Shown: piece by piece, positions 3,594-13,244 of the stretch
Numbering within the stretch: the stretch's first letter is position 1
How the letters are laid out: each line of letters opens with the position of its first letter
Assembly (NCBI RefSeq): GCF_024584705.1
Contig: NZ_CP097384.1
Coordinates: 1,240,001 to 1,304,000 of the forward strand
From: Blastopirellula sp. J2-11
Lineage (GTDB): Bacteria > Planctomycetota > Planctomycetia > Pirellulales > Pirellulaceae
Direction of reading: 5' to 3'
DNA length: 64,000 nt
Made by a program: the position numbers and the translations under genes
Notes under the pieces: generated by a model
Database searches by the model: none
Told to the model about the DNA's origin: nothing
What the model saw: only the letters and a program-made list of their open reading frames with translations

Positions 3594-5021
3594 CTAAACC
3601 CGCAACTCCTCCGCTTTCGCCAACCGAAACTCATACCGATGTCGGATTGGCGCGATGATGTTGTCCAGAAACTCATCGACTTGTTCCGGCGAGCGGCCGA
3701 CGTATTGCGAGGGCTCGAGCACTTTTTCCATGTCGATTTCAGGAAACGCCTGATCGGCTTGCAACCGATCGAGCAAGTCGTTCGGTTTGCCTTCCATCTT
3801 GACGACCATACCGGCGGCGATGGAGTGCTCGCGGATTTTTTCGTGCAGCTCTTGGCGATCTCCGCCGGCGGAAACGGCCGCCATCAAGATGTTTTCGGTC
3901 GCCATGAACGGGAGCTCTTCGTTGAGGTGTTTGGCGACCATCGCCGGATAGACGACCATGCCGCTGGCGACGTTCTCCAAGATGATCAAGATCGCGTCGA
4001 TCGCCAAAAAGGATTGCGGCAACGTCAGACGGCGATTGGCGCTATCGTCCAAGGTGCGTTCCATCCATTGCGTCGCCAACGTGTTGGCGCCGCTCGATTG
4101 CAGGCTCATCACAAAGCGGGCCAAAGCGCAGATCCGTTCGCTCCGCATCGGGTTTCGCTTATAAGGCATCGCCGACGAGCCGATTTGCTTTTCTTCAAAC
4201 GGCTCTTCCACTTCCTTGCGATGCGACAGAATGCGCAGGTCGGTCGCGATCTTGTGGGTTGATTGAGCGATGCCGCTCAGTGCGTCCAGCACTTGGGAGT
4301 CGATCTTGCGCGAGTAGGTTTGCCCCGTGACGGCGTAGGTGGCGTCGAAACCCATCTTCTCGGCGACGCGTTGTTCTAGCAGACGCACCTTTTCGTGATC
4401 GCCGTCAAACAGCGTCAGGAAGCTGGCCTGGGTGCCGGTGGTGCCTTTGGTGCTGCGAGCTTTGAGCATTTGCAGGCGATGCTCTAGCTCTTGCAGATCC
4501 ATCACCAGGTCATAGTTCCACAAACAGGCGCGGCGGCCGATGGTGGTTGGTTGAGCCGGCTGCAAGTGGGTGAAGCCGAGACAGGGGAGGGCGCGATGCT
4601 GTTTGGAGAAATCGGCCAACTTCAAAATGACCGCGGCCAGACGCTTTTCGACCAAATGGAGCGAGTCGCGGAGCAAAATCAGGTCGGCGTTGTCGGTCAC
4701 ATAGCAACTGGTCGCGCCCAGGTGAATGATCCCCTTGGCCTGCGGGCAAAGATCGCCATAAGCATGAACGTGGGCCATGACGTCGTGACGCAGCGCCTTT
4801 TCGTGCTTCGCGGCGTTGGCGAAGTCGATATTGTCGATGTGCTGCTTCAACTCGGCGATCTGGGCGTCGCTGATCGGCAGACCCAGCTCTTGCTCCGCTT
4901 CGGCCAATGCGATCCACAGTTTGCGCCAAGTGCTGAACTTACGCTGGGCGCCCCAGATTTGGCTCATCTCTTGCGAGGCGTAGCGAGAAATCAGCGGGTT
5001 TTCGTAATGGTCGTGCGACAT
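3594..5021 (-). CDS. purB: Adenylosuccinate lyase
   Basis: PurB removes fumarate from SAICAR and from adenylosuccinate in purine synthesis. The 475-residue product has the fumarase/aspartase superfamily signature [10 protein letters not shown] in the C-terminal half, the [10 protein letters not shown] segment of the N-terminal active-site region, and the TKGTTGTQ loop. Length and the N-terminal sequence point to the longer form of PurB that is shared with animals. The frame allows a GTG four codons earlier (5033), but the ATG at 5021 starts at the usual conserved N-terminus. The stop codon is followed at once by a GAAAAGCGGG-type motif shared with two other genes in this window. Confidence 0.95.
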
Positions 5022-5767
5022 CGGCGTTTCCACAGCGTAAAGCGAAACAGGGCGGGAAAACCTGTATTTTAGCCAGAAATGCTCGGTTTGGTCAGTGCCC
5101 GGGGTGGATGAGTCAAATTCGCCGGAGGAAGAAGCGTACGCGGCCAGGTCACAGAGGAAGGCCAGAGGAGGATCCCAGAAGTCATGCCTAAGATTGTCGC
5201 TTGACAGAGCGCACGCAGTTCGGGTCGATTACAGAAAAATAGATCCCACTGCGGGCGGAGCAGCGCAGCATCTGCGTTGCTCAAAGTTACCCACGCGTCT
5301 GCGACAGACCGACGTGGCCGCTCTGGGTGCGCACCTTCCGTTTGGGAGTCCTGTTGCGCAACAATCCAGTTGGATCGTTGGACTTCCGAGACGAAGAAAC
5401 GTGGTCCTGTCCCATGTTTCGACACGAAAAAACTGCGGTCCTGTCCTGTCCCATGTTTCGGTACGAAAAAACTGCGGTCCTGTCCTGTCCCATGTTTCGG
5501 TACGAAAAAACTGCGGTCCTGTCCTGTCCCATGTTTCGGCACGAAAAAACTGCGGTCCTGTCCTGTCCCATGTTTCGGCACGAAAAAACTGCGGTCTTGT
5601 CCTGTCCCATGTTTCGGCACGAAAAAAACTGCGGTCCTGTCCTGTCCCATGTTTCGGCACGAAAAAACTGCGGTCCTGTCCTGTCCAACGTTCCGATGCA
5701 AACCCAATCCATGCTTCACGGCTTCGACATTAGGACTTAGACCTTCGGCATTTCCTCCCCCCCCATT
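5022..5767. other. Long intergenic region carrying a tandem repeat array
   Basis: This 746-bp gap lies upstream of purB and downstream of the next minus-strand gene. Its right half is occupied by the 39-bp tandem array described separately. Reading frames on both strands through the array are long only because the unit length is a multiple of three. The left part (5022-5400) has no supported gene and should contain the purB promoter. Confidence 0.6.
5404..5690. repeat. 39-bp tandem repeat array, seven good copies plus a decayed one
   Basis: The core CCCATGTTTCG occurs at 5411, 5450, 5489, 5528, 5567, 5606 and 5646, so the period is 39 bp except for one 40-bp unit caused by an extra A. A decayed eighth copy ends near 5690, and the first copy lacks one GTCCT. 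Each unit contains a small dyad, TTTCG and CGAAA around three bases, and most differences between copies fall in those three bases (ACA in copy 1, GTA in copies 2-3, GCA in copies 4-7). There are no spacers, so it is not a CRISPR array. Confidence 0.95.
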
Positions 5768-9800: not shown

Positions 9801-10850
9801 CTACCAGCGCATGATCGCCGTGCCCCAAGAGAGCCCGGCGCCAAAGCCGGAGAGCAGAACGTTGTCGCCGCGGCGAATCTTGCCGGCTTGATACGCTTCG
9901 TCCAGCACCAGCGGAACGCTGCCGGCCGACGTGTTGCCGTAGCGATCGAGATTGATCACGACCTTCTCGCGATCGAAGCCCAGGTTCTCGCAAGCGGCGT
10001 CGATGATCCGCACGTTCGCTTGATGCAGCAGCACCAGCGAGATGTCGTCGGCCGTCAGTTGGGCGTGCGTCAGCACGTCTTGAATACTGTCAGTAATCAC
10101 GCGGACCGCCCATTTGAAAACGCTGCGGCCATCCATGTGCAGAAAACCGCGACCAGCGGCCAGGCTTTGATCGTCCAGTCGTTCGGCCGAACCGCCGCCG
10201 GGAACGCAGAGCAATTCGCCTCCTTCCCCTTCGCTGCCAAGCGTGTAGGAGAGGAATCCTTGTTCTTCCGATCCGGCTCCTAATATGACGGCGCCTGCGC
10301 CATCGCCAAACAGCGGGTAGGTTCGCTTGTCGGCGGGATTGGCGATGCGAGACAGCAGATCAGCGCCGACGACCAACGCACGACGACTCGTTCCACAGCG
10401 TACGAACTGCGACGCGGTGATCATCGCGTACATAAAACCAGCACAAGCGGCGCTGACATCCATCGCCGCGCAGCGGATCCCCAGCCGATCTTGCAAGATG
10501 CAGGCTGTCGAAGGGGTCGGCATGTCGGGCGTGAACGTACCGACGACGATCAGATCGATTTCGCGCGGATCGACTCCGGCGTTTTCGATCGCCGCGTTGG
10601 CGGCCGCCAACGCCATGTCGCTGGTCGCCATGGTCGGCGGAGCATGCCGTCGCTCACGAATTCCGGTGCGTTGGATGATCCAGTCGGGGTCGCAGCCGAG
10701 CGAGGAGAGATCTTCGTTCTTGACGATATTCTCCGGCACGAAGCTGCCGACGCCGAGAACCTGCACGCCCAGCAGCTGTCGCAACGGACTGCGATCGGAG
10801 AGTTGTGAAACAGACTGCCCATCAATGGCAGCCGAGCTAGCCGACGGCAT
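9801..10850 (-). CDS. fabH: Beta-ketoacyl-ACP synthase III
   Basis: FabH starts fatty-acid synthesis by condensing acetyl-CoA (or a branched acyl-CoA) with malonyl-ACP. The 349-residue product has the thiolase-fold triad: Cys136 in AACAGF, His in LLHQAN and Asn in NTSAGS. It also has the GDGAGA loop and the C-terminal GFGAGLSWG. The frame is open 69 codons upstream; the Met at 10850 is chosen because the extra part overlaps the promoter region and the 5' end of pyrB on the other strand. With about 26 residues before the usual FabH start, translation could also begin slightly later. It is divergent from pyrB. Confidence 0.93.
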   Translation of the reverse strand: MPSASSAAIDGQSVSQLSDRSPLRQLLGVQVLGVGSFVPENIVKNEDLSSLGCDPDWIIQRTGIRERRHAPPTMATSDMALAAANAAIENAGVDPREIDLIVVGTFTPDMPTPSTACILQDRLGIRCAAMDVSAACAGFMYAMITASQFVRCGTSRRALVVGADLLSRIANPADKRTYPLFGDGAGAVILGAGSEEQGFLSYTLGSEGEGGELLCVPGGGSAERLDDQSLAAGRGFLHMDGRSVFKWAVRVITDSIQDVLTHAQLTADDISLVLLHQANVRIIDAACENLGFDREKVVINLDRYGNTSAGSVPLVLDEAYQAGKIRRGDNVLLSGFGAGLSWGTAIMRW

Positions 10851-11008
10851 GTAGGGGAAATTCCTGGGGGTGGCGAACTTTTGGCGCGAATTGCCAGTAT
10901 AACAAGCTTCGATCCATTTTCCACTTACGTGCGTCTGGTTGCTGGAGCCCGTAATACCACCTAAAATCGCACGCCAGCAATCGCTCGGCAGCCAACCAAC
11001 ATGACACG

Positions 11009-11968
11009 ATGATCGAACTTCCCCCGGAATTGGAGTCGCCGCCCGTCCCTTGGACACGGCGCCACTTACTCGACCTCGAGAGTCTTTCCGCCGCAGAAAT
11101 CACCACGGCGCTAGACGTCGCTCAGCGTTTTAAAGACGCAACTCGCGACTGTAAAGACAGATTACCGACATTAGCGGGGGTCACGTCGGTCAACCTCTTC
11201 TTTGAAGACTCGACCCGCACACGGACTAGTTTTTCGCTGGCCGCCCGCCGATTGGGGGCCGATAACATCGAATTCTCGGCTTCCAGCAGCAGCGTCTCGA
11301 AGGGAGAAACGTTGCTCGATACCGCCAAAACGATCGAATCGATGCAAATCGACGCGATGGTGGTTCGGCATCGATCGCCGGGCGCACCGCAAATGTTGGC
11401 GAAAAATCTTGATTGCTGCGTGATCAATGCCGGCGATGGCCCGCACGAGCATCCGACGCAAGGGTTGCTCGACATCCTGACCATTCGTCAGCATCGCGGC
11501 ACGATCGCCGGGTTAACCGTAGCGCTGGTCGGCGATATTGCCCACAGCCGCACCGCTCGCTCCAACATCTGGGGCCTGCAGAAGCTGGGCGCTCATGTGA
11601 TTGTCTGCGGTCCGTCGACGCTCGTCTCGAAGCAGTGGGAAAAGCTGGGAGTCGAAGTTTCGCACGATTTGGATGACATCGTCGCTCGCTGCGACGTCTT
11701 GAACCTGCTGCGGATTCAATTCGAGCGACAATACACGCGCCCCTTTCCGTCGGTCCGCGAGTACGCACTGCTCTATGCGATGAATCGCGAACGGATGGAG
11801 CAAGCGAAAGAAGATATCCTGATCATGGCGCCAGGCCCGATCAATCGCGGAGTTGAAGTGACGCCGGAAGTTGCCGACGGCTCGCAGTCGGTCATTCTGC
11901 ATCAAGTGAACAACGGGTTGGCGGTGCGGATGGCCGCGTTGTATCTGGTCACCAAAGCGCCCCGGTAA
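11009..11968 (+). CDS. pyrB: Aspartate carbamoyltransferase catalytic subunit
   Basis: PyrB joins carbamoyl phosphate and aspartate in pyrimidine synthesis. The 319-residue product has the carbamoyl phosphate site STRTRTS at 68-74, the mobile-loop SVSKGE, the HPTQ motif, and the late loop [11 protein letters not shown]. Length is normal for the catalytic chain. A dihydroorotase-like gene starts 7 bp after the stop, the arrangement seen for pyrB-pyrC' in Pseudomonas. There the second protein is catalytically dead and is needed for the ATCase complex. No pyrI-type regulatory chain is encoded nearby. Confidence 0.95.
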
Positions 11969-11975
11969 AGAAAAC

Positions 11976-13244
11976 ATGACGACGATCCTGCTGAAAAATG
12001 GCCGCCTGATCGATCCGAGTCAACAACTCGATCGCGTGACCAATGTCTTGTTGAAGGATGAGATCGTCGCTTCCCTCGACGCCCAAGAGACGTACGCCGA
12101 TCTGGTGATCGACGTGACCGGCAAGATCATCGCGCCGGGTCTGATCGACATGCACGTGCAACTGCGCGAGCCAGGCTGGGAAGAAGACGAAACGATCGCC
12201 AGCGGTGCGGCGGCGGCGATCGCCGGCGGTTTCACTTCGATCGCGTGCATTCCCAACACCGAACCTCCGCTCGATTCGCCTGCGAGTATCGAATACGTTC
12301 GCCACAAAGCGGCCCGCGCCGATAAGTGCAACGTCTTTGTCATCGCATGCGCCAGCAGTGGACGAAAAGGAGAGCAACTCTCCGAAATCGGCACGTTGGT
12401 CGAAGCAGGCGCCGTCGGCTTTAGCGACGCGTCTCGCGCGATCACCAATCCCGAACTGCTCCGCCGCGCGCTCGAATACACGCAGATGTTCGACAAGCCG
12501 GTTCTCAACCGACCGGAATTGATTGAGTTGACGCACAACGGCGTCATGCATGACGGCATGGTCTCGCTGGTGCTGGGACTCGCGCCGATTCCGGCCGCCG
12601 CCGAAGACGTGATGGCGGCCCGCGACATCTGCCTGTGTGAAACGACCGGCGGCCGGCTGCATCTGATGAGCGTCTCGTCGAGCGGAACCGTCGAAATCCT
12701 GCGTCGCGCCAAAGCGCGCGGCGTACGGACGACCGCCGAGATTCACCCCTGCAACTTTTCGCTGACCGACGAAGCGCTGCGAGAGTTTGATCCCAATTGC
12801 AAAGTCAATCCGCCGCTCCGTTCAGCCGATCATGTAGCGGCCTGCATCGCTGGCTTGAAGGACGGGACGATCGACGTCATCTCCAGCGGGCACGCTCCCC
12901 GCGCGTCGCAAAAGAAGATGCATGAGATGACCGACGCGCCGTTCGGCATGGTTTCGCTGGAGACGACGCTCGGCCTGACGGCGACCAAGTTAGTGCAGCC
13001 GGGACATTTGACCTGGAGCCAGGCGATCGACAAATTGAGTACGACTCCCGCACGTATTTTGGGTGTTCCGAAAGGAACGCTGATGGTCGGCGCCGACGCC
13101 GACGTCACGATTATCGATCCCGATTTGCCGTGGACGGTTGACACCTCCCAATTCGCTTCTCGCAGCTCTAACTGTCCGTTTGATGGTTGGAAATTGATCG
13201 GCAAAGCGACCAACGTGATCGTTGGCGGCGTCGTCAAGTTGTAG
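11976..13244 (+). CDS. pyrC: Dihydroorotase-like protein with lost metal ligands (PyrC'-type)
   Basis: The 422-residue protein aligns along its whole length with type I dihydroorotases (amidohydrolase superfamily), but its active site is degenerate. The usual metal motif DxHxHxRxP reads DMHVQLREP, so the second His is Gln. The segment that normally reads HIAHVS is HLMSVS. The catalytic TDHAPH is SGHAPR, so the Asp is Gly. The PHH before that region is PCN. Pseudomonas PyrC' shows the same kind of loss and acts as an assembly partner of PyrB. The tight spacing after pyrB supports that role here. An active dihydroorotase should then be encoded elsewhere in the genome. Automatic annotation would probably call this an active PyrC. 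Confidence 0.85.
   Translation: MTTILLKNGRLIDPSQQLDRVTNVLLKDEIVASLDAQETYADLVIDVTGKIIAPGLIDMHVQLREPGWEEDETIASGAAAAIAGGFTSIACIPNTEPPLDSPASIEYVRHKAARADKCNVFVIACASSGRKGEQLSEIGTLVEAGAVGFSDASRAITNPELLRRALEYTQMFDKPVLNRPELIELTHNGVMHDGMVSLVLGLAPIPAAAEDVMAARDICLCETTGGRLHLMSVSSSGTVEILRRAKARGVRTTAEIHPCNFSLTDEALREFDPNCKVNPPLRSADHVAACIAGLKDGTIDVISSGHAPRASQKKMHEMTDAPFGMVSLETTLGLTATKLVQPGHLTWSQAIDKLSTTPARILGVPKGTLMVGADADVTIIDPDLPWTVDTSQFASRSSNCPFDGWKLIGKATNVIVGGVVKL

Follow-up and report, generated by a model that had tools for sequence, protein, structure and literature searches.

The window, the whole stretch of 64,000 nucleotides that was analysed, contains pyrB (11009..11968, + strand), which encodes the catalytic chain of aspartate carbamoyltransferase (319 aa) with intact catalytic residues. 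A PyrC-like gene (11976..13244, + strand) follows after a gap of 7 bp, the distance given by the sequence-only reading of this DNA. It starts with ATG and forms an uninterrupted frame of 422 codons, and its 422-aa product is a pseudo-dihydroorotase, predicted from its residues to be catalytically dead. In the scoring with family models, the pyrB product reached 299.4 bits with TIGR00670 (cut-off 236.95). The PyrC-like protein reached 350.9 bits with the TIGR00857 "dihydroorotase" model and passed the family cut-off of 279.05, which fits the earlier expectation that automatic annotation would call it an active PyrC. Among the best 25 of its 51 matches, it stayed below the cut-off of all equivalog models (top score 428.3 against 728). 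Its best solved relatives were the dihydroorotase (DHO) chains of Aquifex (4bjh, 3d6n and others), at 280 bits.

The start of pyrB is overlapped by the frame of a FabH-like ORF (9801-11057, - strand). Since the family match of this ORF begins only at residue 97, its real start is probably located downstream. Two short palindromes were the inverted repeats found near the operon, and an Rfam search of the 64-kb window gave no match. A tandem array (5404-5686) with a 39-bp unit, 7.2 copies and a 97% match lies near the ORF at 3594-5033, which resembles purB.

Active-site residues of the PyrC-like protein

In Aquifex DHO, the alpha-zinc ligands are His61, His63 and Asp153, with Asp305 adjoining, and the beta-site residues are His180 and His232, as described in PMC3880350. 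In the PyrC-like protein, five of these six metal ligands are replaced (H63Q, D153A, H180R, H232S and D305G in the Aquifex numbering). Thus, positions 61, 63, 153 and 305 carry H, Q, A and G, and the two beta-site positions carry R and S. H309R comes on top of the five ligand losses, and H61, R65 and N95 are retained. R65, N95 and H309 are residues with substrate roles.

All the altered positions were located on the + strand. The former HxHxR metal/substrate motif (12153..12167) keeps H60 and R64, and the residue corresponding to His63 is Q62. The residue for the alpha-zinc ligand Asp153 is A152, and the adjoining conserved Gly has become S153 (12429..12434). His180 is replaced by R179, which is followed by P180 (12510..12515); this proline is found in 98% (weighted) of the altered sequences of family f1. 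S232 stands for the beta-site ligand His232 (12669..12671). TDHAPH is changed to SGHAPR (12888..12902), in which D305 and H309 are replaced by G and R.

The sequence-only reading had listed four changes, and all are present in the protein: Q62 (DMHVQLREP), S232 (LHLMSVSS), G305 (SGHAPR) and CN for HH (PCNF). Its list missed D153A, H180R and H309R. As evidence, the four changes are of unequal value. The HH position is not diagnostic, as it is NH in the active Aquifex enzyme, HY in an intact Monoglobus homologue and CN here. The change of His232 is likewise weak alone; H63Q and D305G are decisive. Since Aquifex DHO stays active with Ala at His180 and His232 according to PMC3880350, we placed the weight on H63Q, D153A and D305G. 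The substitutions are not a chance event: among the planctomycete orthologues, 99 show erosion of these columns and 60 retain them, and Blastopirellula marina DSM 3645 has a 97%-identical copy of the PyrC-like protein. Judged by sequence, the PyrC-like protein has lost DHO catalysis, and the central claim of the sequence-only reading, the loss of the catalytic residues, is borne out.

PyrC and other dihydroorotases in planctomycete genomes

The sequence-only reading had proposed a search of the genome for a second, intact PyrC, as the absence of any other dihydroorotase gene would speak against a dead subunit. Such a gene was found in the genome, which is one contig of 6.43 Mb. The product of C1:156600-157931 scored 577.1 with the PRK07575 dihydroorotase equivalog model against a cut-off of 529. 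It has the HxH motif (HVH), the lysine of GIKIY, both His residues and the TDHAPH motif with Asp. By these motifs, it is a separate, intact DHO of the genome. An E. coli-type PyrC was not found in the genome; the only TIGR00856 match was weak and lay inside the same gene. Among the second-DHO sequences of relatives (L101-L130, L232-L238, L245-L253), QVH stands in place of HxH in 32 of 43, and those inspected for it contain the lysine of GIKIF/Y or YKAY. The PRK07575-type DHO of most relatives thus has QVH for HxH, and its activity there is an assumption.

These results bear on the idea that the PyrC-like protein is a still-active dihydroorotase with an unusual site. H61, R65 and N95 are kept, and the beta-site ligands are dispensable in the Aquifex enzyme (PMC3880350). 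However, H63 and D153, two of the three alpha-zinc ligands, have been lost along with D305, and another, intact DHO is encoded in the genome. We consider an active enzyme extremely improbable.

PyrC was typed in 159 planctomycete genomes by the residues at nine catalytic positions. The genomes comprise 133 genomes of the same order (the present genome included), 13 of family f18 in the same class, and 13 elsewhere in the phylum. At a limit of 1e-45, the search across the phylum gave matches in 88 of 156 genomes; the best 30 of these were typed and the other 58 left out. PyrC was altered in 99 of the 159 genomes and intact in 60, where four partial sequences were typed on fewer positions (six in G227, five in G263 and in G305, two in G255). 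Twenty-five further named loci lie outside the 159 genomes. Two of them are altered (L036 and L037), 20 have all nine positions intact, two are incomplete but intact where readable, and one is unreadable. The predicted non-catalytic mode of DHO is therefore wider than one planctomycete, as it covers the 99 altered genomes.

Two sequences have kept more of the site. L021 (G032) retains all six metal ligands, yet carries N95D and H309L. L022 (G026) retains four ligands, H61, H180, H232 and D305. Both would represent stages in the erosion of PyrC.

All the 99 altered genomes carry another DHO-family gene, which is one of three types. The PRK07575-type DHO is present in 90 of them. Six, all of family f18, have another DHO-family type with about 33% identity to the PRK07575 type; the one of these six that was scored gave 251.6 bits with TIGR00857, below the cut-off of 279.05. 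The remaining three (G013, G264 and G299; L310, L311 and L312), which belong to one genus, have an E. coli-type (class II) PyrC with TIGR00856 scores of 444.0, 443.8 and 446.4 bits (cut-off 292.95). By these scores, class II PyrC adds a third type to the replacement DHOs of Planctomycetota. G013, G264 and G299 had been candidates for exceptions, being altered and without the PRK07575-type DHO; this was rejected by the presence of the E. coli-type PyrC.

No PRK07575-type DHO was detected in the 60 intact genomes, of which 45 were searched at 1e-60, two at 1e-15 and 13 at 1e-8. The 1e-60 limit in the 45 genomes would miss the second-type DHO and class II PyrC; sensitive searches for the second type covered 21 of the 60 (8 + 13), and those for class II PyrC covered three. 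A further amidohydrolase was seen in seven of the intact genomes (G112, G049, G142, G072, G053, G085 and G036). These were rejected as second DHOs, since they are dihydropyrimidinases (TIGR02033 scores of 528-639 against 393.25).

Fisher's test for the altered state against the second DHO gave 2.6e-45. This value takes no account of kinship or of the limited searches in the intact genomes, and it is not evidence by itself. The kinship-corrected pairs test found one pair on the starred branches and three in all, which is not significant. Thus, the association with a second DHO rests on one to three independent contrasts.

Selection and co-occurrence with PyrB

For the PyrC-like gene, dN/dS over the six pairs formed by four genomes of the genus was 0.039-0.117; PyrB had values of 0.033-0.051, and the second DHO had values of 0.015-0.065. 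Conservation was analyzed with 156 planctomycete sequences (59 intact and 97 altered), after three short frames had been dropped. In the intact sequences, 100 columns are conserved at 95% or more, and nine of these are catalytic. The letter is kept in the altered sequences in 26% at the nine catalytic columns versus 86% at the other 91 (weighted means), a contrast that is partly built in, because the nine columns, although chosen beforehand as catalytic, also define the split into altered and intact. A value as low as the 26% of the nine catalytic columns was not reached in any of 100000 random draws. G154, E255, A307 and H260 of the same motifs, which were not used to define the split, are lost too, as expected if the whole pocket was released. 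Fifty-five of the 91 non-catalytic conserved columns are kept at 90% or more. These results show that the PyrC-like gene is retained and that the rest of the protein is under purifying selection.

Among 148 genomes of the order (the present genome included; each protein searched at 1e-60), 125 had both PyrB and the PyrC-like protein, and 23 had neither. PyrC is altered in 80 of the 125 and intact in 45. This agrees with the sequence-only reading, in which the gene is kept together with PyrB. Where pyrB lies upstream in the fetched stretch, the gap between the two genes is 100 bp or less in 81 of 85 altered loci. pyrB and pyrC are on separate contigs in nine altered and seven intact genomes, some of them at contig ends. 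The catalytic columns of PyrB were placed by what we take to be the E. coli positions. Across the planctomycete loci compared (85 altered, 50 intact), 11 of the 12 columns do not vary, and Ser80 is kept in 85/85 altered and 49/50 intact loci.

The 23 genomes without the pair, among which G247, G250 and G253 are counted, were also inspected. The PRK07575-type DHO is present in 22 of them and not in G203. Similarly, two or more TIGR00670 carbamoyltransferase matches were found in 22 and one in G203. G203 has a 158-aa PyrC fragment located directly at a contig end, and this genome is probably incomplete. Longer ATCase-like proteins (L285, L287, L292 and L296) were observed in genomes without the pair. 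They are the extra carbamoyltransferase in those genomes examined, and the two that were scored have 432 and 490 aa. One kind has a Cys-bearing C-terminal extension.

A decaying relic without function, kept merely by its operon position, could account for the eroded catalytic site and for a dN/dS above that of PyrB. However, that ratio is still 0.04-0.12, no internal stop occurs in any listed orthologue match, and the non-catalytic conserved columns are largely kept as described above. Furthermore, the presence pattern of the gene is that of PyrB, also where both are on different contigs. A relic is thus hardly conceivable.

In family f1, some of the replacement letters are themselves conserved: G305 in 96%, P181 in 98%, R309 in 83% and E63 in 74% (76 altered rows, weighted). 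This hints at a possible role of the old site besides that of a scaffold. Amidohydrolases often shift substrates, and a neofunctionalised enzyme acting on another substrate could explain such conserved letters. In contrast to this idea, the metal site is destroyed, the replacement letters differ between lineages, and the gene follows the presence pattern of PyrB. We therefore regard a new enzymatic function as very unlikely.

Alternatively, the protein may be a regulatory subunit whose vacated site binds an effector (a nucleotide or carbamoyl aspartate) and tunes PyrB like E. coli PyrI. The conserved letters of f1 are consistent with such a site, as is the retention of R65 in 72 of 97 and of N95 in 53 of 98 altered sequences with a readable residue at that position. 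However, the replacements vary by lineage, with 58 distinct signatures among the 97 fully readable altered sequences, and all 13 sequences of family f18 keep D305. Moreover, nucleotide inhibition in Pseudomonas is attributed to a loss of complex stability, and the ATP site is on the ATCase chain (PMC7053772). A regulatory subunit is unlikely on balance.

Proposed role beside PyrB and comparison with known systems

We propose that the PyrC-like protein is a non-catalytic DHO homologue that still serves PyrB, a class-A-like aspartate transcarbamoylase, as its partner chain, another gene doing the chemistry. We consider this reading probable. The ancestral planctomycete would have had a PyrB-PyrC pair with an intact DHO, as is seen in relatives. 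Lineages with another DHO, of the PRK07575 type or one of the two others, would then have freed PyrC from catalysis; the association is observed, and the order of events is that of our model. The sequences show that the metal and substrate residues eroded differently by lineage, while the rest of the protein remained under purifying selection and together with PyrB. In its remaining role, the protein would help the PyrB complex to assemble and keep it stable, as Pseudomonas PyrC' and the Aquifex DHO-ATC complex suggest. We infer this role of a structural subunit for PyrB from these counterparts.

A bolder version of this proposal applies to the whole phylum. In Planctomycetota, the DHO subunit might have been freed on the arrival of any of three replacement DHO types, and one family might have rebuilt its site as a metal-free pocket (E/Q63, P181, G305 and R309) that stabilises or regulates PyrB, with intermediates such as L021 still alive. 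We regard this version as speculative, with a low but real chance. If the vacated site was rebuilt as a pocket, an enzyme would have turned into a regulatory subunit.

In Pseudomonas aeruginosa, the inactive DHO chain is required for an active ATCase trimer inside the dodecamer, according to PMC7053772. The DHO and ATC chains of Aquifex also form a dodecamer (PMC3880350), and a dodecamer with active or inactive DHO is one of three ATCase types in PMC4581275. The partner-chain reading places the planctomycete protein beside Pseudomonas PyrC'/pDHO of class A aspartate transcarbamoylase, which is likewise an inactive DHO homologue found with PyrB and conserved despite its dead site. Three features of the Pseudomonas type are present here, namely a DHO homologue beside pyrB that has lost metal ligands, a separate DHO and intact PyrB catalytic residues. 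Pseudomonas also has a separate working DHO in its genome, and that of the planctomycete is predicted to work. The substitutions differ from those of PyrC', in a comparison where Acinetobacter and five alphaproteobacterial homologues stood in for the Pseudomonas sequence. The Pseudomonas complex is a PyrB6-PyrC'6 dodecamer, in which PyrB needs PyrC' for activity. In the Aquifex aeolicus DHO-ATC dodecamer (PDB 3d6n), the chain and its partner are homologous to those described here. However, Aquifex DHO has all six ligands and is active when bound to ATC. The fungal pseudo-DHO domain (Ura2 type) has lost the zinc ligands and is still joined to ATCase (PMC7053772). In contrast to the separate planctomycete protein, it is a domain of a multifunctional CAD-like chain.

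The kind of system is thus already known from Pseudomonas, and what is new is its occurrence in this phylum, together with its link to a second DHO and the succession of graded forms within one order. The sequence-only reading had expected the mode to extend to another phylum, and the catalytic loss, the second DHO and the retention of the gene in a planctomycete, distinct from Proteobacteria, speak for this. No account of an inactive DHO from planctomycetes turned up in the open-access literature; subscription papers may mention one. Intact, part-eroded and dead PyrC coexist in one order and track the second DHO. Because these versions coexist, the transition from enzyme to scaffold becomes testable with natural variants. 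Our results also suggest that the label "dihydroorotase" on many planctomycete genes, including the present one above the TIGR00857 cut-off, is functionally wrong.

The number of origins was analyzed by quick IQ-TREE searches, in whose trees many forks are weak and some rows are long. The PyrC tree contained 85 of 177 rows after thinning, with the catalytic columns left out, and the PyrB tree 103 of 151 rows. In the PyrC tree, the altered sequences of Proteobacteria (from Acinetobacter and five alphaproteobacteria) are placed apart from the altered planctomycete ones, and the starred branches force at least two changes of state. One clade of all 54 altered rows, proteobacterial ones included and Pseudomonas absent, was 32.8 log units worse and was not rejected by the AU test (p 0.19). 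Accordingly, we lowered our claim of separate origins. Within Planctomycetota, parsimony gave three changes. A single altered planctomycete clade was not rejected by the AU test with either the PyrC tree (p 0.87) or the PyrB tree (p 0.28), and in the PyrC tree the clade held together scored even better than the quick-search tree. The claim of several independent losses in Planctomycetota was dropped on this basis. The fewest changes per residue were 16 for N95, 11 for H180 and nine for H61. Thus, individual catalytic residues appear to have been lost repeatedly.

The PyrC homologues of the five alphaproteobacteria and Acinetobacter (L062, L063, L065, L067, L068 and L069) also look dead from their residues. 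Their substitutions are unlike the planctomycete ones, and L067 and L068 are annotated as dihydroorotase.
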